Positions 15,576 to 45,985 of a stretch of DNA of 58,853 nt are shown here, piece by piece. How positions within the stretch are numbered: position 1 is the stretch's first letter; every line of letters starts with the position of its first letter. The position numbers were made by a program, and so were the translations under genes. The notes beneath the pieces were generated by a model. It worked only from the letters and a program-made list of their open reading frames with translations, did no database searches and was not told the DNA's origin. Origin of the DNA: a virus; the IMG/VR virus record IMGVR_UViG_3300017751_000017, positions 1 through 58,853 of that record, one strand, 5' to 3'.

Positions 15576-16160
15576 TTATCCTTCTATGTTAAACTTACCG
15601 ATTTGTTTACTGTAAGGTATTTCTTCCCATAAATTTATGGCAATTGCTAGCCTCTGGCCTTTTGTAACAACTGTAACCTTATGTACATCTTTTCCTGCGT
15701 CGAATATTATTAATCTATTTGGTTTTGCGTAAACAATTTCAGGTGGATTCTCTTCACCATTAGTGTAAATTTCTAGCATACCTCCTTCAAATTCTTCTTG
15801 ATCTGGATAATAAATAGAACCGATTATAGGTGTTTTTAATTCTCCTGTTTTTTCAAACCAAGCTTCATCTTTATCAAAATGCATTTCCAAATTATCTTCC
15901 CATTCATCGCCCATTTCTTTAGCTTCTTGAATCCCGGTCCAATATTCAAAACCTGAAATATTGAATATTTCAGTTATTGGACACCCATCGCCCCATATCT
16001 GTTTAATTATTTTCTTTGCAGTGTTATTTACAGGAGAATTATTAAACCATCCGTCATACCACTTGTATACGCCCGGATCATTAAATAAATGTGGTAAGTT
16101 AGATCGTATCTCTTCTAAAAGCGATTCATCTTTTATAAAATTATCAAATATTGTTATCAT
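15576..16160 (-). CDS. 2-oxoglutarate/Fe(II)-dependent oxygenase (prolyl-4-hydroxylase type)
   Basis: The protein (194 aa from ATG 16160) shows the double-stranded beta-helix oxygenase pattern: MHFDKD with His94 and Asp96, later VHKVTVV with His160, and TKGQRLAIAINLW with Arg170 for 2-oxoglutarate. GSIYYPD and FEGGMLEIY are typical core strands. The 16160 start was chosen because its ATG overlaps the upstream stop as ATGA. An in-frame ATG at 16187 would add nine residues. Enzymes of this type hydroxylate protein, small-molecule or nucleic-acid targets; the substrate cannot be read from sequence. It sits between the UvsX and gp41 genes. Confidence 0.88.
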   Translation of the reverse strand: MITIFDNFIKDESLLEEIRSNLPHLFNDPGVYKWYDGWFNNSPVNNTAKKIIKQIWGDGCPITEIFNISGFEYWTGIQEAKEMGDEWEDNLEMHFDKDEAWFEKTGELKTPIIGSIYYPDQEEFEGGMLEIYTNGEENPPEIVYAKPNRLIIFDAGKDVHKVTVVTKGQRLAIAINLWEEIPYSKQIGKFNIEG

Positions 16161-16456
16161 TGAAATGGATTTTGAATTATTTTCCAAGAAAGTTTACCTT
16201 TCTCGGTATTTACTGTTTCTACTATACCTAAATTTACTAGATCGTTTATAGAATCTAACAATTTAGATTCTTCTGTTTCTTGAAACCTATATGTTTTTAG
16301 GGCGTGTAGTGTAAAATTGCCCTTATGTCTATCTGGCATTCTAACACACAATTGAATCTCTTTGTAAAGTATATCGAAGCCCGTTGGATATTCAGGTAAA
16401 TCTTTTTCAATGCCCATAATGTATTTTATGGGTAGATTATCCTGGTTAATTTGCAT
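16157..16456 (-). CDS. Small winged-helix-like protein between uvsX and the oxygenase
   Basis: A 99-aa protein. The first half (DLPEYPTGFDILYKEIQLCV) is not recognised. The second half (ESKLLDSINDLVNLGIVE then a basic beta turn KGKLSWKII) looks like a winged helix-turn-helix, a common DNA-binding or protein-contact fold. Its ATG lies 11 nt inside the end of uvsX, and its stop overlaps the oxygenase start as ATGA. It holds the place of T4 gene 40 but does not resemble it. Confidence 0.75.
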   Translation of the reverse strand: MQINQDNLPIKYIMGIEKDLPEYPTGFDILYKEIQLCVRMPDRHKGNFTLHALKTYRFQETEESKLLDSINDLVNLGIVETVNTEKGKLSWKIIQNPFQ

Positions 16457-17998: not shown

Positions 17999-19207
17999 TT
18001 AAAATAACGACGATGCGTAAATTAGATTAGTGTCTAGTGTTTGTAGACCAATTGCTGTCAATACTCTATTAAGAGGATCGATCATTGCTTTTTCAAATTG
18101 AGTATCGTAATCAATTTCTGGTGCAATTTCATAAGGATGATCTCCTGGCATATATGCATATACTTCAGATATTGGTGATTTACAATTGTAGATCTTTAGT
18201 TTTTCACCGTTGCCGATAACCTTATATTTGTTTTTATATTTTTTATTTTTATTCAATAAGTAATTGTAATATCCTGCTGCTTTAACATTTGCTGGGCATT
18301 TTAGACCTATTTGAAATTCCTTCTGATCATCAACAATGTATTTGTCAATGTTGTTAGTCCTTCTATTAAAAGAGATCTCATCGATATCTGCAAGTTTAAA
18401 TTGCTTTTTAGTTTCTTTCATAAAGACTACTAATGATTGAAGATCTTCTGCAGTTGGAGTAACTCTACTTTTAAATATGATTTTAAGAGCTTCTACTAAT
18501 TTCTCTCTTGCGAATTTAGGGGTAGATGACTGGATAGTGTCGAATCCGATTGTTTTAATTTTCTTTAACGAAGTATGCCTATCTGTGATTTCTAATTTAT
18601 CATCCCATGCAATATTCTGAATGTATTTTTTCTTAGACATCCAAATACCATTATATGCAAGTGCTTCTAATTCAAACATCAAATAATTATCTGAGTTTCT
18701 TTTTTCTGCATATTTCTCCATACACTTAGTAATATAATCTCTAAGTCTAAAACCATAAAGCGCTAAAATAAACACATCGATTTCCATCTTCTCTGTTTCT
18801 TCTGGCCAAATTATAGATTCATATAGATCCTGAAATTGTACATAACATGAATCTGTATCAATATAAATTACTGATGGTTTTTCTATTTTACCTTTTACTT
18901 TAATTCCAAAGTGAGAATGTACTGCAGTATCTTTATGCCAAAAATCATTAACATATTTGTTAAGAATAGTCTCTGAATAAAGGATTGCATTTTTACCTTG
19001 TTTTGTAATTGACTCGGCAATGTCAATATTAAAAAAGTGGAACCACTTATTACCGAAGGCTCCGTATATCGAGTTTAATGTTAACTTAACTGCTTGTTCA
19101 TATGCAGTGTATTTGGCTGAAAGCTGCTTGTAGTGATCTACAAGCAGCTTCGCCTCATTATCATTTAATTCCTCGATAGATTTATTTTCTAGCGCTTCGA
19201 TATTCAT
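17999..19207 (-). CDS. 43B: DNA polymerase gp43, C-terminal half (motifs B and C)
   Basis: This 402-aa protein is the C-terminal part of the T4-type family B polymerase. It contains motif B KLTLNSIYGAFGNKW (Lys41, Asn45, Tyr48, Gly49) and motif C VIYIDTDSCYV (Asp117, Asp119). It also has the thumb-side KKKYIQNIAW region and a C-terminal IYASSLF that resembles the clamp-binding tail of gp43. The first 40 residues are a helical extension (IEELNDNEAKLLVDHYKQL) that would finish the fingers. The N-terminal half is 4.6 kb upstream at 23818-25221; together they total 869 aa, near T4's 898. The split leaves all catalytic motifs intact, so the halves should assemble in trans. Confidence 0.92.
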   Translation of the reverse strand: MNIEALENKSIEELNDNEAKLLVDHYKQLSAKYTAYEQAVKLTLNSIYGAFGNKWFHFFNIDIAESITKQGKNAILYSETILNKYVNDFWHKDTAVHSHFGIKVKGKIEKPSVIYIDTDSCYVQFQDLYESIIWPEETEKMEIDVFILALYGFRLRDYITKCMEKYAEKRNSDNYLMFELEALAYNGIWMSKKKYIQNIAWDDKLEITDRHTSLKKIKTIGFDTIQSSTPKFAREKLVEALKIIFKSRVTPTAEDLQSLVVFMKETKKQFKLADIDEISFNRRTNNIDKYIVDDQKEFQIGLKCPANVKAAGYYNYLLNKNKKYKNKYKVIGNGEKLKIYNCKSPISEVYAYMPGDHPYEIAPEIDYDTQFEKAMIDPLNRVLTAIGLQTLDTNLIYASSLF

Positions 19208-19208
19208 A

Positions 19209-19952
19209 CTATGCTGTTTGACAAGTTGAAACTGTTAGTAATGTGTTTGTATCATTTGAGTTGAATACAACTTTTGATCCTGAAACATATACTGTTTGTT
19301 CGTCTTTGTCAAGCAAGCTTAAGTATTTTTTGTATACTGTAACTTCACCATTTCCGCTTGTATCTGGATTGATAACAACGCTAAATGATTTACCACTTAC
19401 ACTTACACCTGAAACATCAGATTTAATACTAAATGTTTCGTCTTTGTCAAGTGAAAATAAGTTTTTAACTTTACCAATCATGTGAGTGTCAAAGCTAAAG
19501 TCAAACTTACTATCTTCTTTTGCAAAGATTACATCAATTTGCTCTTGAGTAAGATCTTTAAAGCCAAGTGATGGTTCTGAACAAGCTAGAGTAATTTCTA
19601 GTTCGTCATTAAAAATACGTAGCGTAGATGCTACTAATTCGTTGTCATTTTCGATGAATTCTATTTCACCTTTAATTGCGTCTGCGTCAAAGTGCTTAAT
19701 AGCTTCAATAACTTTGTTTCCTTCAAAGAATGCAATTTTCATTTCTTTGTCAGTTTCTGGCCATGCTTCTACTTGAAAAATGGTGTTAGCTTCTACAGAA
19801 TGATGCTTTACTGCATCTCTTTGTGGAAGATAAACTGTTGAATTAATTGTTCCGTCTGCAATTTTCATGTAGATGAAAGAATCGATTGGTTTTACTCGGT
19901 TGATGAATGCTGTTAAAGCATGCTGGTCAATACGATCTAATTTAAGTTTCAT
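19209..19952 (-). CDS. 45: Sliding clamp, gp45-like
   Basis: A 247-aa protein of repeated beta-alpha-beta make-up, close in size to T4 gp45 (228 aa), the trimeric clamp for polymerase and co-activator of late transcription. Consistent features are the N-terminal MKLKLDRIDQHALTAFINRV helix, TINSTVYLP strands, FDFSFDTHMIGKVKNLF, and a final strand set (VTVYKKYLSLLD, KVVFNSNDTNTLLTVS). The stop lies one base before the start of the polymerase C-half. Position next to polymerase supports the call. Sequence similarity is weak by eye, so a structure prediction would settle it. Confidence 0.65.
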   Translation of the reverse strand: MKLKLDRIDQHALTAFINRVKPIDSFIYMKIADGTINSTVYLPQRDAVKHHSVEANTIFQVEAWPETDKEMKIAFFEGNKVIEAIKHFDADAIKGEIEFIENDNELVASTLRIFNDELEITLACSEPSLGFKDLTQEQIDVIFAKEDSKFDFSFDTHMIGKVKNLFSLDKDETFSIKSDVSGVSVSGKSFSVVINPDTSGNGEVTVYKKYLSLLDKDEQTVYVSGSKVVFNSNDTNTLLTVSTCQTA

Positions 19953-20010
19953 AATTATTTGTTTTTGATAATGATTTATTATTATATAGAATTGCTTCGA
20001 AATGTTTCAT

Positions 20011-20043
20011 AAAAAAAGCCCAAGATCCTAGAAACTTGGGCTT
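20011..20043 (-). terminator. Rho-independent terminator after the beta-barrel gene
   Basis: A perfect 9-bp stem (AAGCCCAAG / CTTGGGCTT) with a 10-nt loop, followed on the minus strand by a run of T. It ends the transcript of the gene at 20069-20485 before the clamp gene. Confidence 0.92.
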
Positions 20044-20068
20044 AACTTTTAACCAAATCAGTTTTAGT

Positions 20069-20485
20069 TTAGAACTTTAAACCAAATCCGATTTGAAGGT
20101 TAGTTGTTTCCATTCCTAAATCGTAAACGATCTTTGGATCTACAAACATAGATCCTTTGTGGAATGCGAACATTTTACCTACACCTAATTGAAGTTGATC
20201 GAAATCAAAATCGTTTAGTGCTACATATCCAAAGAATCCTTTATGGAAATATCTTCCTTCTAGACCTAAGACCATGTCTTCAGTTGAGTCAGCTTGTGCA
20301 ACACTCATTCCAACCATATAGTTGTCCGAGAATGCATATCCGATTGTTGGTTGGATTGATAATTCAGTCCAAGCCGTGTTAGCAATATCGCCAGTACCTA
20401 CGTACCAGTCACCTTTTGTATTCTGTGCATTAGCACCGAATGTTGTCAAAGCCGCAAGGGCTAATGTTAAAATAAAATTTTTCAT
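20069..20485 (-). CDS. Secreted outer-membrane beta-barrel protein
   Basis: The 138-aa protein starts with a clear signal peptide (MKNFILTLALAALTTFGANA, cut before Q), followed by alternating strands: WYVGTG, LSIQPTIGYAF, YMVGMSVAQA, MVLGLEGRYF, GFFGYVALNDF, LQLGVGKMFAF, PKIVYDL and TNLQIGFGLKF. The terminal Phe and about eight strands are typical of small outer-membrane barrels, and the ANAQ cleavage style is typical of Bacteroidota. It stands alone between terminators, between nrdA and the clamp, so it is independently transcribed and looks host-derived. Phage-coded outer-membrane proteins may alter the cell surface, for example to block superinfection; that role is inferred. Antisense frames here are shadows. 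Confidence 0.85.
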   Translation of the reverse strand: MKNFILTLALAALTTFGANAQNTKGDWYVGTGDIANTAWTELSIQPTIGYAFSDNYMVGMSVAQADSTEDMVLGLEGRYFHKGFFGYVALNDFDFDQLQLGVGKMFAFHKGSMFVDPKIVYDLGMETTNLQIGFGLKF

Positions 20486-20514
20486 ATTAAAATGTTTTGG
20501 TTAAAATAAATCTA

Positions 20515-20607
20515 TCAGTCTGTGATAACAGTTCTAGGAGTAAAGATAGATGTGCTGCTGTTATTTTTAGCAGTCTTTGTTAATAAGTATAATGAAGTTG
20601 TGTTCAT
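20515..20607 (-). CDS. 30-aa small ORF before the beta-barrel gene
   Basis: ATG 20607 to TGA 20515 encodes 30 residues beginning MNTTSLYLLTKTAKNN and ending TPRTVITD, followed at once by a second stop (TAG). A TATAAT-like box (GGTATAATAG) lies 19 nt before the ATG and AACAAAGAAAA precedes it. It sits 29 nt before the beta-barrel ATG and could be a leader peptide or a small protein. The evidence is open frame and position only. Confidence 0.4.
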   Translation of the reverse strand: MNTTSLYLLTKTAKNNSSTSIFTPRTVITD

Positions 20608-20625
20608 TTTTCTTTGTTAATTGGA

Positions 20626-20635
20626 CTATTATACC
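20626..20635 (-). promoter_or_regulatory. TATAAT-type promoter for the beta-barrel unit
   Basis: Minus-strand GGTATAATAG follows a T-rich tract (CCTTTTTTATTTAG) in the only gap between the nrdA terminator and the 30-aa ORF. A host-type -10 element is the likely reading. No clear -35 was seen. Confidence 0.45.
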
Positions 20636-20707
20636 TGCTAAATAAAAAAGGTTTCACATTTTATCTAAAATAATTAACATTTAATTGTTAATATGATAAT
20701 TGGTGAC

Positions 20708-20746
20708 AAAAAAGTGAGGCCAGACAGTAGCGATACGTCTGGCCTC
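20708..20746 (-). terminator. Strong rho-independent terminator after nrdA
   Basis: A perfect 10-bp stem (GAGGCCAGAC / GTCTGGCCTC) with an 11-nt loop is followed on the minus strand by CACTTTTTTG. It lies about 54 nt after the nrdA stop and isolates nrdAB from the beta-barrel unit. Confidence 0.95.
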
Positions 20747-20799: not shown

Positions 20800-22632
20800 T
20801 TATCCATCGCATGCAGCACAATCTGGATCTGTAGCTGCCGCAGCAATATCTCCTCTAAGTACTGATTCAGTTCTCATGTAGTAGAGTGTTTTTACACCCT
20901 TTCTATATGCTTCTAAATGTACTTGATTAATAAATTTAGGTTCTGCCTCTTTTGGAAAGGCTAGATTTAAACTTGCAGCTTGATCAACGTATTGTTGTCT
21001 AATACCTGCTTGTCTTACTAGATCTAATTGATTAATTTCTTTGAAGGTTCTAAATACATCAGACATTGGAATATAATCAGCTTGTTCTAATGTTGGTAGT
21101 TTTTCTAATTGCTTTTTAGTTAGTGGCTTTTGAATACCTGAAGTTCCTTCATTGTCTGAAAATGATGAGACAAAATATTCTTCAATCCATGGTAATCCTA
21201 ATACTGATCCACCGTCTTCTAGGATTTTATCCCATGTTGATTTAGTATTCTTACCTATTGTATCTAAAACTTGTTCCAGTGTCGGATTCTTTCTAATAAA
21301 AGTACCTTTAGCTGTTTGTTCTGTTAGTAGATTTGCTGCCCATGGCTCAATGCCTGGAGAAACATTACCACTAAGTTTAGAATTAGTTACTGTTGGGGCA
21401 ATAGCTCTTAAGTGAGTATTTCTCATTCCAGTTCCTACACACCATAATGGTTCTCCATATTCTGTAGCTAGATCTCTTGATGCTCTTTCAGATTCTATCT
21501 TTAATTGTGAAAAGATTTTACGTGTTTCGAATTGAGCCGATAAAGAATCAAATGGAATGTTCTTTTCTTGTAAATATGTATGCCATCCTAATACACCAAG
21601 TCCTAGTGCTCTACCCTTTTCTGCAGATCTAATTGAATTTTCAAATCCTCTCATGAATTTAGCCTTTTGAATAAACTCTTCCATGACGCCATCTAAAAAC
21701 CAAGTTGCTGTGTAAATAAGATCAGTATCTTTCCACTCGTTGTACTTAGCTAAGTTTACAGAAGAAAGACAACAAACAAATGAGTGATTCTCATCTGTAT
21801 GTAATGTAATCTCTGAACAAATGTTAGTCATATAGACTTTTAATCCATTCTTTGAGTATGCTTCTGGATTTGCTCTATTGACATTTCCCTTATACATAAT
21901 GTATGGCTCTCCTGTAGATCTACGCTTCCTTAAGAGCGCAGCCCACTTTTTACGAGATTCTTTGTCACCAGCTTCAACCTTTTGCATAAAACCATCTGGA
22001 ATTACTGCACATTGGTGTAAGTTCAATGATTGTCTATTGACATCACCCTTAGGTTCTCTAATTTCTAGCCATTCCCAGAAATCAGCATGTTCAATGTCAA
22101 TATTAACACTTGCTGCTCCTCTACGAACAGAACCCTGATTAGTGGCAAGTATTGTAGAGTCAAATATTTTGCAAAAAGGTACAACTCCATCTGATGTACC
22201 GTTTCCTGTAATTTTTGCACCTGCTGGTCTAATTTGATTAATTCCTGTACCTACACCACCACCGTGTTTGGCAAGTAGCATCATCTCTAGGTTTTTAGCA
22301 CCAATATCGTGAATTGAATCCGCAACATCAATACCAAAACATGAAATAGGTAAACCTCTTTCTAATCCAGTATTTGAAAGCACAGGTGAGGCTAGATTTA
22401 ACCAACCCTTCCATATATAATCAAAGAATTTCGATGCAAGTTCAGGTTTACCTAATCTTTTAGCAATTGTAGTTGCAACTCTCCAGTATGCATCTTTAGG
22501 CGTTTCATCTTGGTAACAATATCCTTTGCTTATTGTTTTAACATATATCTCTGTGTTTCCCCATGTTGGGAAATCTACACCTAGCTCCCAACCTAAGGAC
22601 GCTCCGTAATTTACTTTATCTTCTTTGTTCAT
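20800..22632 (-). CDS. nrdA: Ribonucleotide reductase large subunit NrdA (class I)
   Basis: The 610-aa protein reduces ribonucleoside diphosphates with NrdB to supply dNTPs. It has the radical-site trio NICSE (Asn270, Cys272, Glu274). Redox cysteines are at SCFG (Cys98) and CCLSSVNL (287/288). The Tyr-Tyr radical-transfer pair is in TLYYMRTES, and the C-terminal CAAC pair is for thioredoxin or glutaredoxin. It is much shorter than E. coli NrdA (761 aa) because the N-terminal ATP-cone is absent, so dATP feedback inhibition at that site is not expected. It follows nrdB by 14 nt and ends at a strong terminator. Confidence 0.95.
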   Translation of the reverse strand: MNKEDKVNYGASLGWELGVDFPTWGNTEIYVKTISKGYCYQDETPKDAYWRVATTIAKRLGKPELASKFFDYIWKGWLNLASPVLSNTGLERGLPISCFGIDVADSIHDIGAKNLEMMLLAKHGGGVGTGINQIRPAGAKITGNGTSDGVVPFCKIFDSTILATNQGSVRRGAASVNIDIEHADFWEWLEIREPKGDVNRQSLNLHQCAVIPDGFMQKVEAGDKESRKKWAALLRKRRSTGEPYIMYKGNVNRANPEAYSKNGLKVYMTNICSEITLHTDENHSFVCCLSSVNLAKYNEWKDTDLIYTATWFLDGVMEEFIQKAKFMRGFENSIRSAEKGRALGLGVLGWHTYLQEKNIPFDSLSAQFETRKIFSQLKIESERASRDLATEYGEPLWCVGTGMRNTHLRAIAPTVTNSKLSGNVSPGIEPWAANLLTEQTAKGTFIRKNPTLEQVLDTIGKNTKSTWDKILEDGGSVLGLPWIEEYFVSSFSDNEGTSGIQKPLTKKQLEKLPTLEQADYIPMSDVFRTFKEINQLDLVRQAGIRQQYVDQAASLNLAFPKEAEPKFINQVHLEAYRKGVKTLYYMRTESVLRGDIAAAATDPDCAACDG

Positions 22633-23817: not shown

Positions 23818-25221
23818 TTAGGACTTTAATTTTTTTTCAAGTTCATGTGCTTTTTCATAATATTCATAAGAAGTCTTTTTATATTCTTTACGTTGACTGT
23901 ATAAATCAGCCAATATCTTTTTAAGAATACTATCTTCTTTCTTATAAACAACTCCGTTTTCACAGACAATTACATCCTTGTCCTTTCTTCTTTCTGGAAT
24001 ATCCATTTCATTTACTTGTTCAACAAATGCATCCGGAGATATATTAAATTGACGCATAATTGATGGATATAGAGATGCAAAATCAAACGCTGAAACTCCA
24101 GAGTAATAACCTACAATAGGTTGTTTAACGAATGCTCCTTCAAATTTACCGTCTTTCTTTGCATCTTCTTTATTCCATTCCATTCCAATTTTTTTATTTT
24201 GACCAATTAGCTTTCTGGCTATAAGCGCTTCCGTTACTGCCACTGGAGATGCTGCTTTATAAAGTGGCATTCTAGTTATAGTTGCTAATGTCAATAGTAC
24301 TTCCATTGATCTAAGTTGTTTATCTATATAATATACTAAACATGAATCAACCACGTTATAGTAAATATATTTTTGGAAGTTATTTTCATATAATTCTTGT
24401 AAACCACCAGTGTATTTAATCTTTGCAACATCTAATACTGCACTAGATACAAAATCTAATGAATTAGATTCTTTTACAGCAACAGATCTATCATATTTAT
24501 CATATAACTGCATGTAATCCAATATTCCCATGTGTAATGGTCTACTATCGTTTCTATCTAAAGATCCAGTGATTGCCACGTCAGTCAGGTCTATTTGTAA
24601 TCTTTTACACCTATTGACTATATACTGCCAGTCATAGTTGATGAAATTCCAACCAGTCATCATTGGGAACTTAGGTAGAAACTTATGTAAGAATGTATAT
24701 ACCATGTTATACTCGTCATCAAACTTGTAATAACTGAATTCCCAATCCTGATCATAGTCTTTAAAATGAGCGTTGGTATCATCTTCAATCTTTTTGATTT
24801 GATCTGAACTCATATCTTCTAAACCTAAAACAATTGCTTTACGTTCAGGTGTAATGATAGAGAATGATAGAATTCTGGTTTTAGCTTCTTCTGCTTTTGG
24901 GAAACCATCTACAATTTCAGTTTCAATATCCACAAAATATGTACGTGGCATATTAAATTCGAAGATTTCATCTTGATCCTTCTGCGGTAGAGAATCCATA
25001 AAATAAAGCAAACTAAATTTATTAAAACTTCTTGAGATAGATCTCTTAATTGGGCGATTATCCCAGTTTCTAAATTTAATATCTTTCCAACGATCCTTTT
25101 CTTCAGTGACTACCCAATTTTCAAATTTGTTAACAGAATATCTTTTAAATGATACTTTGCCTTCTTTATCGTAATAGCTGATTATGACTTCGTTTTCTTT
25201 TTGCTCTATATCTAATAGCAT
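23818..25221 (-). CDS. 43A: DNA polymerase gp43, N-terminal half (exonuclease and motif A)
   Basis: The 467-aa protein is the first half of the T4-type family B polymerase. Proofreading motifs are intact: Exo I FVDIETE (Asp98, Glu100), Exo II WNFINYDWQ (Asp197) and Exo III YNVVDSCLV (Tyr288, Asp292). Polymerase motif A is FDFASLYPSI (Asp380). It ends after a basic helical stretch (YYEKAHELEKKLKS) in the fingers region, with a normal stop and no intein-like ending. The other half is at 17999-19207. T4-like Aeromonas phages are known to carry split gene 43, but there the intervening DNA differs. Confidence 0.93.
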   Translation of the reverse strand: MLLDIEQKENEVIISYYDKEGKVSFKRYSVNKFENWVVTEEKDRWKDIKFRNWDNRPIKRSISRSFNKFSLLYFMDSLPQKDQDEIFEFNMPRTYFVDIETEIVDGFPKAEEAKTRILSFSIITPERKAIVLGLEDMSSDQIKKIEDDTNAHFKDYDQDWEFSYYKFDDEYNMVYTFLHKFLPKFPMMTGWNFINYDWQYIVNRCKRLQIDLTDVAITGSLDRNDSRPLHMGILDYMQLYDKYDRSVAVKESNSLDFVSSAVLDVAKIKYTGGLQELYENNFQKYIYYNVVDSCLVYYIDKQLRSMEVLLTLATITRMPLYKAASPVAVTEALIARKLIGQNKKIGMEWNKEDAKKDGKFEGAFVKQPIVGYYSGVSAFDFASLYPSIMRQFNISPDAFVEQVNEMDIPERRKDKDVIVCENGVVYKKEDSILKKILADLYSQRKEYKKTSYEYYEKAHELEKKLKS

Positions 25222-25759: not shown

Positions 25760-26656
25760 TTATTTGTCTATTTCTAAAACTTCTCCCCATTCTCTTTTTG
25801 AATTCGTTTTTTCTTTAGTTTCTTCTGATTCTGGATAAGGCTGTCCACCTACATTCCAAAACCAAGCTCCTTGATTTCCATGTTTAACCATAAATTCCCA
25901 AGCCTTTGCATCATAGTTCATTGCTGATGGAAAAGGAGGGGCAAATTCTGGTTTTACATCCGAAGCAAACGCTTTAGGATGTGACCAAACTTTAGCTCTA
26001 CCTAATTCACCGTTTTGAATATTTCTAGAAACCGCAACTGCATTAAATTCAGCATCTGGCCATGCAATTTGTAAAGATCTAGATAAAACACCGGTAGATA
26101 TTGCTGACCATACTTCTTCTGGATATCCGTGTTTTTCTGCTACATCATATGCAACTTTGACCGCAGCTGCAGTTACTAACTCATGTTTAAGTCCTAATGG
26201 AATAAACGTAGCGTTGTTATCTTCTGCCCATTGTTTTGCAATTCTATTTAAATTAGGCATTGCTGCAATTCTTCTAAATTTAGGTGTTGCTCCTCTTTCA
26301 ATACATATGGCTTGATGATCTGATATTACTTTACCCGATGGCATAAATAGCACTAATTTCTTATTGTATTTTTTTGCTAAATATGCAAGAGAAATTCCTG
26401 CGAATCCAAATCTTGGCTGTACATATACTAATGTATCAGTCGGTGCTTTCTGTACTAAAATATCTCCAAATCTACATTTAGATCCAAAGCCCATCATATC
26501 ATCTCTTACTACATTAAATCCTTCGTGATTCACAATAATTGGATCATCTAGTGGATCTTGCCAATCTCCTGCTAAATCTAACCATGCCTGTCTATTAGGC
26601 ATCATAAGATTTAAATCTTGATTCATTGAACTTGTTGTGTGTTTATCGTGTGCCAT
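25760..26656 (-). CDS. PLP-dependent enzyme, fold type II (ACC deaminase/D-cysteine desulfhydrase-like)
   Basis: A 298-aa protein. VVRDDMMGFGSKCRFGDIL (residues 49-67) matches the R-x-D...G-x-K-x-R pattern of tryptophan-synthase-beta-fold enzymes, with Lys60 as probable PLP Schiff-base lysine. PRFGFAGISLAYLAKKY corresponds to the substrate-loop and helix region, and ISTGVLSRSL (186-195) to the phosphate-binding loop. The family acts on amino acids. Here it lies 3 nt after the gene at 26660, inside a cassette of putative base-modification genes, so it may make or trim an amino-acid-derived DNA adduct. The substrate is unknown. Confidence 0.75.
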   Translation of the reverse strand: MAHDKHTTSSMNQDLNLMMPNRQAWLDLAGDWQDPLDDPIIVNHEGFNVVRDDMMGFGSKCRFGDILVQKAPTDTLVYVQPRFGFAGISLAYLAKKYNKKLVLFMPSGKVISDHQAICIERGATPKFRRIAAMPNLNRIAKQWAEDNNATFIPLGLKHELVTAAAVKVAYDVAEKHGYPEEVWSAISTGVLSRSLQIAWPDAEFNAVAVSRNIQNGELGRAKVWSHPKAFASDVKPEFAPPFPSAMNYDAKAWEFMVKHGNQGAWFWNVGGQPYPESEETKEKTNSKREWGEVLEIDK

Positions 26657-26659
26657 ATT

Positions 26660-27772
26660 TTATTCGTTTGGATAATCTCTACCCCATAAATGTCGAGTAG
26701 TGTCTGCGTTAACATTAATTTCTTTATCTGGATTTTTAGCTAAATTAAATTTACCATCAAATATCCATGTATATGGAATTCTTTTTGTTGGTGATTTTAT
26801 TCCATGGCTAATTGCAATGTGTTTATAGAAGAAACATGTTTTATCTTCTACATTTAAATACTTTTGACTTTCCATTGGATTGTTTGGATGATTTACAAGT
26901 ACATCCATTTGTCTTAGCCATTCTTCAGCATGCTTATTCTCTGCAATAAATTGACCATCTGAGTCAATAGAATATTTTACTTTACCATTAAGATTAACTC
27001 CACCAAATATTTGTTGCATGCCATCGAAATGTCCGGTACCTCCGAATAAAATAGATTCAGGATCAACAAGATCTGGTCTACTCATAGCTACATATCTTGC
27101 TGTGTTTTTACATGGATATAAAGGTGATCTAAAGTTTTGATGTTCTTTAAAATAAGCTTCTAATAATTTAGCAAACTCCATCATTGTATATGGCCTTTCT
27201 AGATCTTCTAGAATATGAGCCATATCTTTAGCTGCTTTTTTAGGTCCTTCAATTAACCAATCTTTAACTATTGTACCCTTAGGATAATATATCTGAAATA
27301 AATCATTCCTAGCATGTCTGTTTTCTACAAAATGCGCCCTGGTCTTTTCTTCACCTTGATTAATTAATTTAGTAATGGTTCCCCAATGCTCATTAGAGAA
27401 TGAAAACACAATAGTATAATAAAGTAATTTTTCTAGATCTGTCTCATGTTGCATCATATAACAATAAGGATGTTCATGCCAGTGTAACCTATGGGAAAAT
27501 ATTTGATAATCTTCTAATAGTAACCTATCTTCTCGTTTATCAAATTCATGACAGAATTCAAAGAATTTAGCTAATCTTAATTCTTCTGACCAATCTTTCA
27601 TCCAACTTTCTGCAGGCTTCTTTTTCTTAAATTTTATATCTGTATTAGTTCCATCATAAGTGATGTTACTGTATTCTTGATTGACATCATCATCAAACGT
27701 AAACAAAACACCTTGATCTGGTGTTTGTTTAATTTTTGGTTTGACTTCTTTTATTTTTATTTTCTCGCTCAT
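26660..27772 (-). CDS. Putative aGPT-pyrophosphorylase/glycosylase-like base-modification protein 1
   Basis: A 370-aa protein. The N-terminal 70 residues are basic and probably disordered; the rest is helical. The segment SPLYPCKNTARYVAMSRPD, then VDPESILFGGTGHFDGM, resembles the signature region of phage proteins related to DNA glycosylases that attach groups to activated hydroxymethyl-thymine (alpha-glutamyl/putrescinyl-thymine pyrophosphorylase and 5-hmdU kinase helical-domain group). The neighbour at 27769 shares the same layout, and the two overlap as ATGA. The family call comes from pattern memory and needs a profile search; the catalytic role is inference. Confidence 0.5.
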   Translation of the reverse strand: MSEKIKIKEVKPKIKQTPDQGVLFTFDDDVNQEYSNITYDGTNTDIKFKKKKPAESWMKDWSEELRLAKFFEFCHEFDKREDRLLLEDYQIFSHRLHWHEHPYCYMMQHETDLEKLLYYTIVFSFSNEHWGTITKLINQGEEKTRAHFVENRHARNDLFQIYYPKGTIVKDWLIEGPKKAAKDMAHILEDLERPYTMMEFAKLLEAYFKEHQNFRSPLYPCKNTARYVAMSRPDLVDPESILFGGTGHFDGMQQIFGGVNLNGKVKYSIDSDGQFIAENKHAEEWLRQMDVLVNHPNNPMESQKYLNVEDKTCFFYKHIAISHGIKSPTKRIPYTWIFDGKFNLAKNPDKEINVNADTTRHLWGRDYPNE

Positions 27773-28977
27773 GTTTTTGCTACCATTTTTTTATATTCTT
27801 CAACTGATACGCCTGCGCTTTGCAATACTTTATCATCAGATGGAAATTGAGTCATGTCATTGAATGTCTTTACTAAACCTAAATCTAACATAGCCTTTTG
27901 TCTACCATATGGATGATCTTTAATAGCGGACGAATTCCACAAAGTGTCCATATTTATATGTGCATAATCCTTTCCAGGTCTTAAATAATTTTCTATCCAT
28001 CTAATAAAGTCACACGCTACATCTTCTGCATTATATGGAAGTGAGCCAGTGTCTTCATAAATCTTTGTCATTACTGCGTCTAGAAACTCTTCAGACTTTT
28101 TACCTTTCTTTTCTACAGGATCTGCAAGATAACCAATACATTCTACTGCGTTAGTACCATAATAGAACATTGATTCTCTATTCATAAATTCTGGGTACCA
28201 ATCGCAAACATCTGCAATAACTGCAGCATATTGAAATCTATAAGCTCTTAAGCCATTATCTGCATTCCACTTAAACATCCATTCACCCAATTCTCTTAAG
28301 TCTTTTTTATCACCTTCTCTTAAGAAGTTTGCCATGTCTCTGGCCATTCTTGGCGCAAATTCACACAAGAAATAATCTCCACCTCTTTTATACACATATT
28401 CTGGTTTTGTAAAACTAGACATGCCTACAAACGAATCTTCATTAACTTCTGGTTTTGGTGGTTTTGGAAATGCTGGAAATTGATAACCAACTGAAGTGTA
28501 AAATGGCGTAGGATGATGTTTGATCACCTCACACATTTCTTCTATAGTTTCACATTCATGTAAATTAAATAAAATAGTGTTGTGATATCCTGATGGTTTA
28601 GTTGCATAATTAATTGCTGAGCCACATACTCTGTGAAGAATAAAGATGTAAAGCCATTCTTCTAGTCCAAATTCGTCTCTCTTAGAATTCCAATTAGTAG
28701 CCACTTCCATTCGCTGAGGTGTATATAATCCAGCTTCCATTCTTGACCAATATGGATGATCTGAATTCCAACCATAAAAACAGTCATTAATTATTTGGGA
28801 AAATCCAGCATATTTACGTTCTACGACATCATATAATTCTATGTGATGCATTAGTTCGTCATCTAGTTTTGATTCTGCATGTGGAACATGACCAAGATTA
28901 CTTAAATCTTGCTGTTTTTTGGCTAGCTCAAAATATCTTAAGAACTCATCGTAATATTTGGTTGTTGTTATGTTCAT
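27769..28977 (-). CDS. Putative aGPT-pyrophosphorylase/glycosylase-like base-modification protein 2
   Basis: A 402-aa, mainly helical protein with an early YAGFSQIINDCFYGWNS stretch, then EFGLEEWLYIFILHRVCGS. The segment RAYRFQYAAVIADVCDWYP followed by NRESMFYYGTNAVECIGYL parallels the ARYVAMSRPD and SILFGGTGHFDG block of the neighbour, so the two look like diverged paralogues. The proposed relation to hypermodified-thymine enzymes is the same, with the same caution. Two unlike copies may form a heteromer or act on successive steps. Confidence 0.5.
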   Translation of the reverse strand: MNITTTKYYDEFLRYFELAKKQQDLSNLGHVPHAESKLDDELMHHIELYDVVERKYAGFSQIINDCFYGWNSDHPYWSRMEAGLYTPQRMEVATNWNSKRDEFGLEEWLYIFILHRVCGSAINYATKPSGYHNTILFNLHECETIEEMCEVIKHHPTPFYTSVGYQFPAFPKPPKPEVNEDSFVGMSSFTKPEYVYKRGGDYFLCEFAPRMARDMANFLREGDKKDLRELGEWMFKWNADNGLRAYRFQYAAVIADVCDWYPEFMNRESMFYYGTNAVECIGYLADPVEKKGKKSEEFLDAVMTKIYEDTGSLPYNAEDVACDFIRWIENYLRPGKDYAHINMDTLWNSSAIKDHPYGRQKAMLDLGLVKTFNDMTQFPSDDKVLQSAGVSVEEYKKMVAKT

Positions 28978-28988
28978 TGTTTTTTATT

Positions 28989-29786
28989 TTATACAAAAAA
29001 ATCTTTATTGTCATGACATAAGATCAAATACATCAAACATACATGTAGATCTGCTAACCACTGAATGTGTGCATTTGGAAATTCTCTTCTTATTAAGAAA
29101 TCTATTTCTTCTGTTGTTTGGCTTATTCCTCGCCATGGTTTATTTTTTATAGTGTCATAATAAAGATCTAACATGCCCTTTACAATAGGATATCCATTCA
29201 ATATTTCTTTATTCGATGATCCTGTTTTGGCTCTATCTTTCCATTGCGGATTTGTTAATTCTCCTATTGAGACCAAATCTTTTTCTAAATAATCCCATAT
29301 ATTTTCATATTCATCCTTTACATCAAACATATATTGTTTGTGATTAAACCCAAAACTATAAGCATAGTTTTCTAATTCTTGAAGATATACTGCATCTTCT
29401 CTGTGTGTTTGTTTTAATACACCTTCTACATTGCTTAAGATTTGGTATGGATCAGTTGACCGGATATGTGTTTGTGTTATAATCAATGGAAATAAACTAA
29501 TTATACCACCGTATATAAGTCTGCTACCTATTCTATTTTTAAATGAATCTTTTTGAGCTTGTAGTGCAATATCATATGTTATTGGTAAATCTTTGGATTC
29601 GTAAACTCGTTTTGCTAATTCTCTAAATGAATCTCCTGTATTAATACCGGCAACTAGGAAGTTTTCTAGCTTTAAGTTTTTATTCTTATCGGTGTATCTA
29701 GTTGTTAATCCAGGTTTATTAGCTATAGGTTCTAGAACAAATGCTATTTGTGCTATTCTAGCTATTTCATTTGGAGATATCTGCAT
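28989..29786 (-). CDS. CitG/MdcB-like (triphosphoribosyl-dephospho-CoA synthase family) protein
   Basis: A 265-aa helical protein. The start, EIARIAQIAFVLEPIANKPG then LTTRYTD, fits the E-x-x-x-x-KPG-x-V/T-x-R pattern of CitG-type enzymes. FLVAGINTGDSFREL and DSFKNRIGSRLIYGGIISLF fit the later helices, including the N-x-x-x-G position. CitG displaces adenine from ATP and joins triphosphoribose to dephospho-CoA. No citrate-lyase genes are present, so another acceptor is likely. The context of PLP enzyme, glycosylase-like proteins and dUTPase suggests nucleotide or base modification. The call rests on motif pattern only. Confidence 0.5.
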   Translation of the reverse strand: MQISPNEIARIAQIAFVLEPIANKPGLTTRYTDKNKNLKLENFLVAGINTGDSFRELAKRVYESKDLPITYDIALQAQKDSFKNRIGSRLIYGGIISLFPLIITQTHIRSTDPYQILSNVEGVLKQTHREDAVYLQELENYAYSFGFNHKQYMFDVKDEYENIWDYLEKDLVSIGELTNPQWKDRAKTGSSNKEILNGYPIVKGMLDLYYDTIKNKPWRGISQTTEEIDFLIRREFPNAHIQWLADLHVCLMYLILCHDNKDFFV

Positions 29787-35543: not shown

Positions 35544-37388
35544 TTAGTCTTTCTTCACAAACTGTTCAAATGTCATGAATTTTGACTCTGCAACACCCAT
35601 AGAAACCTCTAATTTTGTTCTCAATTCAGTATACATGCTATGAATCGGCCTAGGTGTTAATTTTTTAAATGTCTTTTCATCACCGTCTAGCATTGCATTT
35701 CTAACTTGTGTTGCTGAAATGTTTTTACCAGATCTAGGGATTTCAAATAAACCAAAATCTTCTCTACAATTTAAAGATTCTCTGTATTCTGGTTTATCAA
35801 CTTGATACGAATATGTTTTAAGCCTATCAGTTCCTGTTCCCCAAAGTACTGGTTCGTAACCATCAGCTCTCATTGCGTTAAACATATAATCTATTGCCGC
35901 TCTATCTAAAATGTATACCTTTTCTATTGGGTATTTAGACTTTAATTTATTAAGCATTGCTAATTGAGTTTCTTCGTCATAAGGTCTTTTAAATGCATCT
36001 TCTTTTTTCTTAGTCTTTGATTTAATCAGTATTACAACAACAGGATGTCCGTTTTGTTTACTGATAGTATCTATTACTTTAGCATGACCTAGCGTAAACG
36101 GTTGAAATCTACCAACAAACATGTTAACTGGCTTTTTACCCTGGTCTGGATAATCTACAGTTAATCCTTCCATTATTGGACTTACATCACCGTTTAATTT
36201 TTGATTAATTAGATATTTTTTAAAATCCATTACATCTTTTTCGTTTGTTTTACCCATTATGATAGATTCTATCTCTTCGACTATTTCGTTAATCTGAGAC
36301 ATAAGATCTGAATTTATAATAGCAGTTTCTTTATTTCTCTTTTTTCTAAAAGAACCGAGAGCTATCTTAAAAAGCTCTGATAACACCTTGTTTTGTACTA
36401 ATGAGATTGTTTTCTCGTTAGAGATATATGTTGTATTAAGTTCGAAGTTTTCACCTTCTGCAAAATCTGCCGAATCAAAATCTGCACCTACATATTTAGT
36501 TGCGTGTTTTTCTACATAGGCATTAAATATAGATGACATTAATTCTACATATCTAAGATCTGCGTCTTCTTCCTTTAATTCTATATCTGATATATCGAAG
36601 CTTGTTAAAAATTCAACTAAATCTAGTATAGATATTTGATACATGTCAGATGGTTTTCTAGGTTCTGATTCAATTCTATCGAATCTTTCTAGTTTAAAAC
36701 TCTTAGGATTTCTATTCTCATAGAAGTTTACTACCAACGCATCGATATCTTTATCTAAATCCAGATTTAATGCTGATTTATTTCTACCGTTATCGAATAT
36801 ATTGTATATTAATCTTGTAAAAGATTCATTCTTAAATTTAGTTTTGAATTCTGATTCACCTAACGACAATAAAGATATTAGATCTTCTTTTTGATTTAAT
36901 GCTAATTGACCCTCAAACAAAACTGATATTTGTTGTACTTCTAGTTTCGATGCCCACTTCTCAAGAATTCTAGGGTCTCTAATAACTCTTTTAACTTTTG
37001 TAGGATCTGTTGCGTTAAGTACTTGTATGTGTGTTAATATTAAATTGTTTTTTGGTAATAAGTCATATTCTATGTCGATAGTTTTCTTATCTACCATATA
37101 ATCAAATCCAAATTTCCAATCTTTTGGCATTTCATTTAACGCTTCATCTGAAATAGTGTTAAAATGTTTAATGGCATTTTCATAATATTTAACGAGAGTT
37201 CTATCTACGCGATTCATTGCCGTTTTTGAACCACTCTTAAAGAATTCAAATTTACCAACCTCTTCTTTTCTTACGTGAAAACTTGATGCTTGCACTTTTT
37301 CTGTTACAACACATATGTTATTCAATAACTCATTAAAGTCATTGATATTAGTAGATTCAAAATATGTTTTTAGGTTTTGTAGTGCCAT
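35544..37388 (-). CDS. Fusion: nucleotidyltransferase-like domain plus NMN adenylyltransferase
   Basis: A 614-aa protein. Residues 420-600 form a NadM/NadR-type adenylyltransferase domain: MFVGRFQPFTLGHAKV (His435 of the HxGH-type motif), PYDEETQLAML, EPVLWGTGTDRL, and ISATQVRNAM. Such domains make NAD from NMN and ATP. Residues 35-160 (VGKFEFFKSGSKTAMNRVDR, WKFGFDYMVDKKTIDIEYD) look like part of a ligase-type or other nucleotide-transfer domain, but weakly. SPIMEG at 403-408 is a possible prohead-protease site just before the NadM-like domain, and the extreme C-terminus (FMTFEQFVKKD) looks like a misplaced targeting peptide. It precedes other packaged-protein candidates. Confidence 0.75.
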   Translation of the reverse strand: MALQNLKTYFESTNINDFNELLNNICVVTEKVQASSFHVRKEEVGKFEFFKSGSKTAMNRVDRTLVKYYENAIKHFNTISDEALNEMPKDWKFGFDYMVDKKTIDIEYDLLPKNNLILTHIQVLNATDPTKVKRVIRDPRILEKWASKLEVQQISVLFEGQLALNQKEDLISLLSLGESEFKTKFKNESFTRLIYNIFDNGRNKSALNLDLDKDIDALVVNFYENRNPKSFKLERFDRIESEPRKPSDMYQISILDLVEFLTSFDISDIELKEEDADLRYVELMSSIFNAYVEKHATKYVGADFDSADFAEGENFELNTTYISNEKTISLVQNKVLSELFKIALGSFRKKRNKETAIINSDLMSQINEIVEEIESIIMGKTNEKDVMDFKKYLINQKLNGDVSPIMEGLTVDYPDQGKKPVNMFVGRFQPFTLGHAKVIDTISKQNGHPVVVILIKSKTKKKEDAFKRPYDEETQLAMLNKLKSKYPIEKVYILDRAAIDYMFNAMRADGYEPVLWGTGTDRLKTYSYQVDKPEYRESLNCREDFGLFEIPRSGKNISATQVRNAMLDGDEKTFKKLTPRPIHSMYTELRTKLEVSMGVAESKFMTFEQFVKKD

Positions 37389-44016: not shown

Positions 44017-44926
44017 TCAAGAAAGAATCAAGATCATCATCTGTACTAACTGCAGCAGTTTCTTTTGATTCTGTCTTTGCAGGAGCCGGAGCTGCTGCTT
44101 CAACTACTGTTGTTGCACTTGTAGTAGCTTTCTTTGGTGTAGATGTTGAACTACTTGTCATCGCAGAGATAGAATCTCCAGGATTTAAGTACATTCTTAG
44201 TACATCGTTTACAAAAGACCTAGTATCTTCGTCCCATGCTTTGTAGTCATAGTTCACGAGAGATGGTGCATTCTCAAGCTCAGTTTTAATTGCAGTCATT
44301 GTCTCTTTGTTTCTTTCTGCTGGAGAATCGCCCATTAAAATTGCAGAAGTACTAGCAGAGAACTTAGATTTATCGTAGTTGTTATATTCACCTTGGCGAG
44401 TAATGATCAATTCGAAGTTTTTGCCTTCAAATAGGTCAAACACCTGTGTTGGTTCACCGAAATCTGGCTTAAGCTCAGCATCGATTTTTTCTTTGATCTT
44501 GTAACCGAATTTGAATACTTTGTAAGTACCTTCTAATTCTGGATTTTGTGGATCTTTTACGATCTTAATTAAAGAATAGTACTGCTGACGTCTCTTTAAT
44601 TTCTCTGATGACTTGCGATCTACTGCTGAATCTGATTTTCTCAGTTTCCAGAATACATCTGCAATTGGGCATTTTTCACCTATTGAAGATGGTGAATCTA
44701 CCAATTTACCGTCACCACTAGAATTAGTTAACCAGTGTACGTATTTTTGAATTAGAGAATTTCTTGGATTCTCTGGATTTGGAACAAAGCGGATTAGTGC
44801 TTTATAAGTTCCGTCTTTGCCGTCATCGGCAGTTGGTTTGTAAACTTCGTTTACTGTTGTTCTTTCGGGCTGATGCGTTTCTACGTCTTCTACGCCCAAG
44901 TTAAAAATGTCAAATGATTCGCTCAT
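44000..44926 (-). CDS. 32: Single-stranded DNA-binding protein gp32
   Basis: The 308-aa protein has the T4 gp32 layout (301 aa): a basic N-terminal cooperativity region, an OB-fold core (TYKALIRFVPNPENPRNSL, YYSLIKIVKDPQNPELEG, VFKFGYKI, SKFSASTSAI), a Pro/Ala/Thr linker, and an acidic protein-binding tail DDDLDSFLNDLDI. The core zinc site of T4 gp32 (His and three Cys) is not visible. Only EKCPIADVF remains, so metal binding is probably lost. It coats ssDNA and organises the fork and UvsX loading. It leads the primase-uvsY-uvsW operon. Confidence 0.9.
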   Translation of the reverse strand: MSESFDIFNLGVEDVETHQPERTTVNEVYKPTADDGKDGTYKALIRFVPNPENPRNSLIQKYVHWLTNSSGDGKLVDSPSSIGEKCPIADVFWKLRKSDSAVDRKSSEKLKRRQQYYSLIKIVKDPQNPELEGTYKVFKFGYKIKEKIDAELKPDFGEPTQVFDLFEGKNFELIITRQGEYNNYDKSKFSASTSAILMGDSPAERNKETMTAIKTELENAPSLVNYDYKAWDEDTRSFVNDVLRMYLNPGDSISAMTSSSTSTPKKATTSATTVVEAAAPAPAKTESKETAAVSTDDDLDSFLNDLDI

Positions 44927-45012
44927 AATACCTTTAAATTGTTTAATTGTTTAATACTTGAAATTACTTTAATGTTCTTTCGTTACCTTATAGTGTATAA
45001 TAATAAATAGTT

Positions 45013-45183
45013 TCAACTTATTTCTAAGATTGCTCCTGAAGGTTCCTTCCATCTATTTTCCTCTAACTTAATCAGTCCTGACTTGTGAAGTAACTCTGAC
45101 GCTTCCTTTTCAGTAAGCTGGTTCGCTATCACCATTTTTTCGAGGATCTTAATTAGACGAAGGTATTCAATAGTAATCAACAT
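45013..45183 (-). CDS. 56-aa small protein before gp32
   Basis: ATG 45183 to TGA 45013 encodes 56 residues (MLITIEYLRLIKILEKM at the start, KEPSGAILEIS at the end), with a helix-turn-helix-like middle (NQLTEKEASELLHKSGLIK). A GATATATAA box lies 30 nt before the ATG, the same spacing as for virion genes. It stands alone in a 405-nt gap between RuvC and gp32. Codon use is normal, so it is probably a real gene; function unknown. Confidence 0.65.
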   Translation of the reverse strand: MLITIEYLRLIKILEKMVIANQLTEKEASELLHKSGLIKLEENRWKEPSGAILEIS

Positions 45184-45212
45184 ATAAATTAATACTTTAA
45201 TTATTATACATA

Positions 45213-45221
45213 TTATATATC
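45213..45221 (-). promoter_or_regulatory. Candidate late-type promoter box before the 56-aa gene
   Basis: Minus-strand GATATATAA lies 30 nt before the ATG at 45183. A second TATAAT-like string (GTATAATAA) follows closely. The rest of the 45184-45331 gap holds only an 8-bp inverted repeat (TGTTTCAT / ATGAAACA, 45234-45281). Confidence 0.5.
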
Positions 45222-45331
45222 TTAGTTCCCAATTGTTTCATGGAGAGGCTTATTAAAAATAAATAATAAAAAAATGAAACAGTTTCTCGCAACTAGCATA
45301 TAACAAATGTTATCTAAGTCTGGAGGAAAGA

Positions 45332-45985
45332 TTAGGTGGAGGGGTTTGAAACGTATGTAACCAAGAAATATGCATCGACTAGGTCGTCTAACGGCTTCGG
45401 GATCTTTTTCCCAATTTCCAAGTTTTTAACCATAGAATGCAAGGGGCTTCGAGCCAAGATTGGGTCATCGTTCACATTTTGCTGATAAGCCTCAAACAAC
45501 TGAAGCTTGTTCATGTTACCTTTACCAGCAAACTTTTTAATAGTTGTAGGAGCCACAGTCAATATGTCTTTAACGTGAAGTTGAGTAATCATCTGTTCTT
45601 TAAGAATAGCCGCACCTGCAGCCATGTCAATTATATTGTTAGTTCCCATTTTAGAACCATAAGAAGTACCTTCAAATGCAACTATATAATCTTGTTTAGA
45701 TTTTGTAACATTAAGGATAATATTAATAATAGCGTCAGCAGTTGCCATATATCTTCTTACCTTTGCTAACTCATTCTTTGAATAATCTCCAAATGTGGTC
45801 TTCCAATCTTCTTGATAAATTAATGTGACATCATCTAATAAGCCTATATCTTCCTGAAGCTTTTGTTCCTTTTTGGTACCTAAACCTGGTTTAACGTAAC
45901 TTATATAATGATGTGTGTTGGATTCTGTATTGAAAATACAAATACCTGGAGAATTTAAAGAAAAATCTACTGAAACGTAATTCAT
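45332..45985 (-). CDS. RuvC-like Holliday junction resolvase
   Basis: The 217-aa protein has the RNase H-fold resolvase pattern: SVDFSLNSPGICIF (Asp7), YIVAFEGTSYGSKMG (Glu105), VAPTTIKKFAGKGNMNK (typical RuvC helix) and PLDDLVDAYFLV (Asp200/201 and Asp204). T4 itself uses endonuclease VII (gp49) to resolve branched DNA; here a RuvC-type enzyme may do so before packaging. It follows the 122-aa membrane-like gene by direct abutment. Confidence 0.88.
   Translation of the reverse strand: MNYVSVDFSLNSPGICIFNTESNTHHYISYVKPGLGTKKEQKLQEDIGLLDDVTLIYQEDWKTTFGDYSKNELAKVRRYMATADAIINIILNVTKSKQDYIVAFEGTSYGSKMGTNNIIDMAAGAAILKEQMITQLHVKDILTVAPTTIKKFAGKGNMNKLQLFEAYQQNVNDDPILARSPLHSMVKNLEIGKKIPKPLDDLVDAYFLVTYVSNPST

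Follow-up and report, generated by a model that had tools for sequence, protein, structure and literature searches.

Introduction

Phage-encoded outer-membrane proteins (OMPs) are already known as a kind, and include Lom of phage lambda, a number of annotated barrels and the curli pores of marine myophages (PMC9004378). The lambda lom gene is expressed during the lytic cycle and is transferred together with a holin gene (PMC9836094), and a role in lysis has been proposed for the CsgG/CsgF outer-membrane pore genes carried by the marine T4-like phages HTVC008M and Melnitz (PMC9004378). Such proteins are often annotated and rarely explained. Here we analyse an OMP gene in the window, by which we mean the whole stretch of 58,853 nucleotides of viral DNA from IMG/VR record IMGVR_UViG_3300017751_000017. 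The gene very probably encodes an outer-membrane barrel carried in a mobile cassette. As far as our searches reach, the family to which it belongs is undescribed: it has no Ail/Lom or PHROG match, and its behaviour as a cassette is unusually clear.

Results

The virus and the setting of the gene

The window encodes head, portal and head-protease proteins, and comparison of nrdA places Flavobacterium phage immuto (58%) closest among sequenced phages. We infer that it represents a large T4-like phage, most likely with a host in the Bacteroidota. The OMP gene is read from 20485 to 20069, the plus strand of this interval containing many stops, and it lies within a replication region, as the earlier note on this DNA had described; the gene order is nrdB-nrdA-OMP-clamp-polB(C part)-UvsX-gp41 (Table 1). 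The family-B DNA polymerase is split in two ORFs (23818-25221 and 17999-19207) that stand 4.6 kb apart, with nrdB, nrdA, OMP and the clamp gene between them. Elsewhere in the window, PLP-enzyme-like, CitG-like and unassigned genes together with a 2OG-Fe(II) oxygenase (25760-29786 and 15576-16187) possibly form a putative base-modification set, and a 614-aa protein (35544-37388) has a C-terminal domain resembling cytidyltransferases and nicotinamide-nucleotide adenylyltransferases.

Table 1 Features of the OMP cassette and its flanks in the window
Feature	Position	Strand	Remarks
OMP gene	20069..20485	minus	138 aa, ATG start; signal peptide and predicted eight-stranded barrel
OMP signal peptide	20426..20485	minus	predicted cleavage ANA|Q (from sequence; A20 and Q21 invariant)
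OMP 5' leader, about 130 nt	20486..20622	minus	contains TCCTAGAA, the reverse complement of the OMP terminator loop
OMP promoter, TGAAAC-N17-TATAAT	20628..20656	minus	class enriched in window; TATAA kept in relatives
nrdA-side intrinsic terminator hairpin	20716..20746 (T tract 20708-20713)	minus	z -4.15
Intrinsic terminator hairpin behind OMP	20016..20043 (T tract 20011-20017)	minus	loop TTCTAGGA
Cassette absent from the L286 empty site	20016..20708	minus	~0.69 kb
Same-class promoter in front of the sliding-clamp gene	19982..20009	minus	
nrdA, upstream neighbour of OMP	20800..22632	minus	
Sliding-clamp gene, T4 gp45-like, downstream neighbour	19209..19952	minus	named from sequence and context

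A predicted eight-stranded outer-membrane barrel

The signal peptide, MKNFILTLALAALTTFGANA|Q, has no lipobox Cys, and the ANAQ cut given in the earlier note fits A20 and Q21, both invariant across 90 distinct phage homologues. The AlphaFold2 model (mean pLDDT 80.2, pTM 0.71) consists of a helix (residues 2-20) and eight strands (26-35, 46-51, 56-63, 72-81, 84-91, 99-108, 113-122 and 127-137). Its best structural matches in VIA-align 2 are the N-domain of OprF (Z 13.7 over 110 residues, 3.0 A) and the transmembrane domain of OmpA (Z 12.6), and OmpW, NspA and OmpX are also among the matches. Foldseek alone gave no match to the model with E below 0.001 in the PDB, and a sequence search of solved structures returned nothing significant. 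Designed soluble barrels (Z 11.7) and avidins (Z 10.6) also aligned; these matches were discounted in view of the signal peptide and the invariant C-terminal Phe. The terminal Phe, already remarked on in the earlier note, is not chance, because all 156 complete homologues, a few of them cellular, have Phe last.

The same note had read about eight amphipathic strands from the sequence. Their number agrees with the model; the amphipathic alternation did not hold up, since in the single sequence hydrophobicity alternates no more strongly than expected by chance (360 of 2000 shuffles were equally strong). The claim for the fold therefore rests on the family-based model, the structural match and family-wide features. 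Structure prediction, which the note had named as a check for a closed barrel, returned an eight-stranded model with OprF and OmpA as the top matches. Among Pfam families, OMP_b-brl (PF13505) is the commonest weak match, found for 31 of 46 family members (best E 5.8e-5), and the window's protein (P0001) scores 17.6 bits against a curated cut-off of 28.7; Ail/Lom (PF06316) is absent among the matches of P0001 at E up to 10 and of the 46 members at E up to 0.1. The prediction shows a signal peptide, eight strands, a closed barrel and a C-terminal Phe, all as in OmpA/OmpX-type proteins, and on this model the protein would be exported through Sec and would then form, in the outer membrane, a closed barrel of eight strands and short loops.

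Promoter, terminators and leaders

The gene has a TATAAT promoter of its own, as had been claimed (TATAAT at 20628-20633, TGAAAC at 20651-20656), and the window contains six TGAAAC-N15..19-TATAA sites where 0.79 are expected, a count that none of 100 shuffles reached. The flanking terminators, claimed at the same time, are found as hairpins on both sides. The one on the nrdA side folds far better than shuffles and is kept in relatives and at the empty site of L286; the hairpin and T7 behind OMP are weaker (z = -1.6 only), and the stem is kept in near relatives through compensating changes (CCCAAG/CTTGGG, CCCAGG/CCTGGG, CCCGAG/CTCGGG). A pattern scan missed both hairpins, whose loops are longer than its 8-nt limit. 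At some distance, the intergenic stretch 44926-45332 of the window contains three promoter-like TGAAAC-TATAA sites, distributed over both strands, which may mark a control region or a divergent promoter.

The 5' leader could in principle pair with the terminator loop, and CTAGA lies upstream in all 56 loci having the loop TTCTAGGA. As a candidate kissing loop, the cognate pairings of leader TCCTAGAA with the terminator loop showed no clear gain in length over shuffled ones (355 of 5000 permutations were as long), and several leaders mismatch the loop. Two sequence-unrelated structured leaders were observed about 150 nt upstream of OMP (L034, L036, L058, L061, L070, L076, L153 and L154; L013, L037, L046 and L051). 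The consensus folding energies of the two leader groups are -37.3 and -30.1, versus -7.9 and -14.8 for column-shuffled alignments; both groups show compensatory pairs, and the window's group is weaker in the leader alignment. Rfam gave no match at any OMP leader in the window and ten related loci. The structured leaders are possible candidates for new regulatory RNAs of phage OMP genes.

An empty site and a swappable slot

The cassette lies behind the nrdA terminator and in front of the promoter of the clamp gene. In the close relative L286, whose clamp is 86% identical, both flanks of the window are matched and the cassette is missing. As in a moron, the gene has its own promoter and terminator and is absent from the same site in this relative. 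The slot is empty in L286, L301, L302 and L304-L307 (search with the clamp protein). Elsewhere it is filled by a one-TM coiled-coil protein (L287-L289), by a Pfam holin (PF23987, E 2e-18; L292), by small proteins similar to the L292 holin (L294-L296) or by a serA-like gene (L290), and contig IMGVR_UViG_3300047369_000502 has the coiled-coil protein in the slot (L289) and an OMP elsewhere (L020). The absence of the cassette from relatives shows evolutionary dispensability only.

Mobility, selection and extent of the family

The order nrdA-OMP-clamp is common to the window's near relatives, and OMPs 83-91% identical to that of the window stand amid unrelated genes in L006 (between tRNA genes), L013, L020 and L025. 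Among loci that share flanks with the window, five (L007, L008, L010, L021 and L042) give a dS of about 0.6-0.7 for OMP, whereas the flanking genes range from 1.1 to over 2, a pattern that exchange following the divergence of the lineages would produce; in L029 and L031 it is not lower than that of the neighbours. The cassette is mobile between phage lineages, and the gene, with a dN/dS of about 0.1, is under purifying selection.

Scans of viral contigs returned 171 and 96 related stretches, from which the loci kept amount to about 90 distinct complete phage proteins. Members occur in well over a hundred contigs of uncultured viruses, the loci of which are not independent, some contigs having been fetched twice and many sequences being near-identical. 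Two family members, and a two-TM protein often encoded behind OMP, had no sequence match in 50,697 phage records, PHROGs and NCBIfam gave sub-threshold matches only to the family, PADLOC had no match for OMP or the two-TM protein, and a description of the family was not found in the openly licensed literature.

Cellular relatives

A genome scan found OMP relatives at about 30-35% identity in Flavobacteriales/Bacteroidetes MAGs, where the genes around the copies examined are ordinary chromosomal ones, CTP synthase (named from sequence) among them, and a profile search matched 35 of 399 genomes of the order. A search of viral contigs with a cellular relative as query found none. In a tree of 88 rows, which is unrooted, has few columns, is uncertain in its finer order and samples cells partially, a single branch with a long stem (96/92) separates all 60 phage rows from the others. 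L082, which comes from a MAG bin and matches at 93%, looks like a phage contig, because its genes match those of virus contig L006. On these sequence comparisons the OMP gene appears to be of cellular type, the direction of transfer being unrooted.

The search for host homologues that the earlier note had recommended turned up distant chromosomal relatives, and no host homologue close enough to resemble a copied receptor, the nearest cellular relatives being those at about 30-35%. The moron-like layout that it had proposed is strengthened by the empty site, the swappable slot, the mobility between unrelated phages and the chromosomal relatives.

A conserved putative outer face

Conservation across the 90 distinct phage proteins is highest in strands 1, 2, 7 and 8 and in loops 1 and 2. 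The periplasmic turns are variable, as are loops 3 and 4, with loop orientation assumed from the usual OMP topology. Mean entropy is 0.75 bits in loop 1 and 0.70 bits in loop 2, and 1.17-1.43 in the periplasmic turns. Residues W39, T40, Q64, T127 and N129 are invariant, and conserved outer-face motifs are N-x-A-W-T-E in loop 1, Q-A-D-S in loop 2 and T-T-N at the start of strand 8. Given the usual topology, the conservation of loops 1 and 2 suggests a conserved site on the outer face of the cell and would point to a surface function. A periplasmic partner would call for the opposite pattern.

Partner genes in other phages

Directly behind OMP, 79 of 146 classified loci encode a conserved protein of 74-80 aa with two predicted TMs, and a further 17 encode a one-TM coiled-coil protein of the same type as the slot occupant of L287-L289. 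OMP stands upstream in 78 of the 80 loci found by searching with the two-TM protein, a proportion biased by a query taken from OMP-linked copies. The pair lies downstream of amidase and holin in L061, in L118 it is flanked by genes for a prohead protease (PF03420) and a scaffold-like protein, and in many other phages the OMP gene adjoins late, lysis or membrane-protein genes. The two-TM partner was not found in the window's record or in the related records searched. In one viral contig (L093:6846-7193), a tmRNA gene lies directly behind the OMP and two-TM genes.

Discussion

Our overall explanation, to which we give a little less than even odds, is that a T4-like phage of Bacteroidota carries an insulated, movable OMP cassette of cellular type that is made to change the host surface. 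The OMP would be made during infection from a promoter class that also precedes the clamp gene and would sit in the host outer membrane, where its conserved extracellular face would alter the surface of the infected cell. The outcome would most likely be less re-adsorption or superinfection, or the binding of a common host surface component. As to function, surface change or superinfection exclusion is our leading guess, held tentatively. Receptor masking, superinfection exclusion or permeability change would be consistent with the conserved extracellular loops; physical masking of a receptor is not obvious, because every loop is short and loops 3 and 4 vary.

A surface or exclusion role fits the conserved outer loops best, whereas a lysis or envelope role fits the partner genes better, and the late, lysis and membrane-gene neighbours in other phages fit the latter at least as well. 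In this alternative, which has almost as much support and which we rank only slightly below the leading guess, the barrel and small inner-membrane proteins (the 75-aa two-TM protein, holins and the one-TM coiled-coil protein) would time or complete envelope failure at the end of infection. It draws on the two-TM protein and the coiled-coil protein behind OMP (79 and 17 of 146 loci), on the OMP upstream of the two-TM gene in 78 of 80 loci (found with an OMP-linked query), on the holin and coiled-coil protein that hold the window's slot in L292 and L287-L289, on the amidase and holin that precede the L061 pair, and on the co-transfer of lambda lom with a holin gene (PMC9836094). Yet the window's clade is without the two-TM partner in the records searched, the promoter of its OMP is of the class found at the clamp gene, conservation is lower in the periplasmic turns than in loops 1 and 2, and L061 already has a holin and an amidase. 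A wider reading, unlikely in full, is an undescribed two-membrane phage module, widespread in uncultured Bacteroidota phages, in which a cell-type barrel with a conserved extracellular site, usually together with the two-TM protein and structured leaders, is moved as a cassette to reprogramme the host envelope.

It is unlikely that the barrel serves to admit small nutrients or to stabilise the outer membrane during the shutdown of host synthesis. The model does resemble OmpA/OprF/OmpW/OmpX-type barrels, and the gene is mobile, under purifying selection and present in many phages, but such a role would leave the conserved extracellular loops unexplained, eight-stranded barrels rarely form wide pores, and no function is known for the cellular relatives. 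A secreted soluble eight-stranded barrel of avidin- or lipocalin-like type is highly improbable: avidins, lipocalins and designed soluble barrels align with the model (Z about 8.7-11.7) and strand alternation is not significant in the single sequence, but OmpA-type barrels rank first structurally, OMP_b-brl is the commonest weak Pfam match (31 of 46 members, best E 5.8e-5), and the C-terminal Phe occurs without exception, with a last strand G-x-G-L-K/R-F, as expected for barrel-assembly recognition.

Whether for surface change, our preferred reading, or for its alternatives, the family offers a tractable case, with a small single-domain protein, an exact empty site, alternative slot occupants, a conserved extracellular patch and chromosomal relatives as controls, and it would allow a direct test of the role of a phage OMP in lytic infection.

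Among described systems, lambda Lom (Ail/Lom, PF06316) is likewise a phage-encoded eight-stranded outer-membrane barrel and an accessory gene. The window's protein differs from Lom in being without an Ail/Lom Pfam match, and its cassette has its own promoter and terminator in the replication region of a T4-like phage; lambda is temperate. The annotated OMPs of Vibrio phage nt-1, Cellulophaga phage phi17:2 and Synechococcus phage S-CBWM1 are also phage-encoded predicted barrels, but they show weak fold similarity only (Foldseek E 1.6e-3 to 1.7e-2) and, in the phage records searched, no sequence match, the best viral Foldseek match being a 139-aa uncultured-virus protein (E 3.9e-6). CsgG/CsgF forms a lipoprotein secretion pore, in contrast to the monomeric eight-stranded barrel predicted here. 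The chromosomal OMPs of Flavobacteriales (L083-L091 and L165-L194) differ in loops 1 and 2, in their identity of about 30-35% and, in the copies examined, in their chromosomal gene setting, but they share with the phage family full-length homology, the motifs Y-L/V-G-T-G-D and P-T-V/I-G-Y-A, and the terminal Phe.
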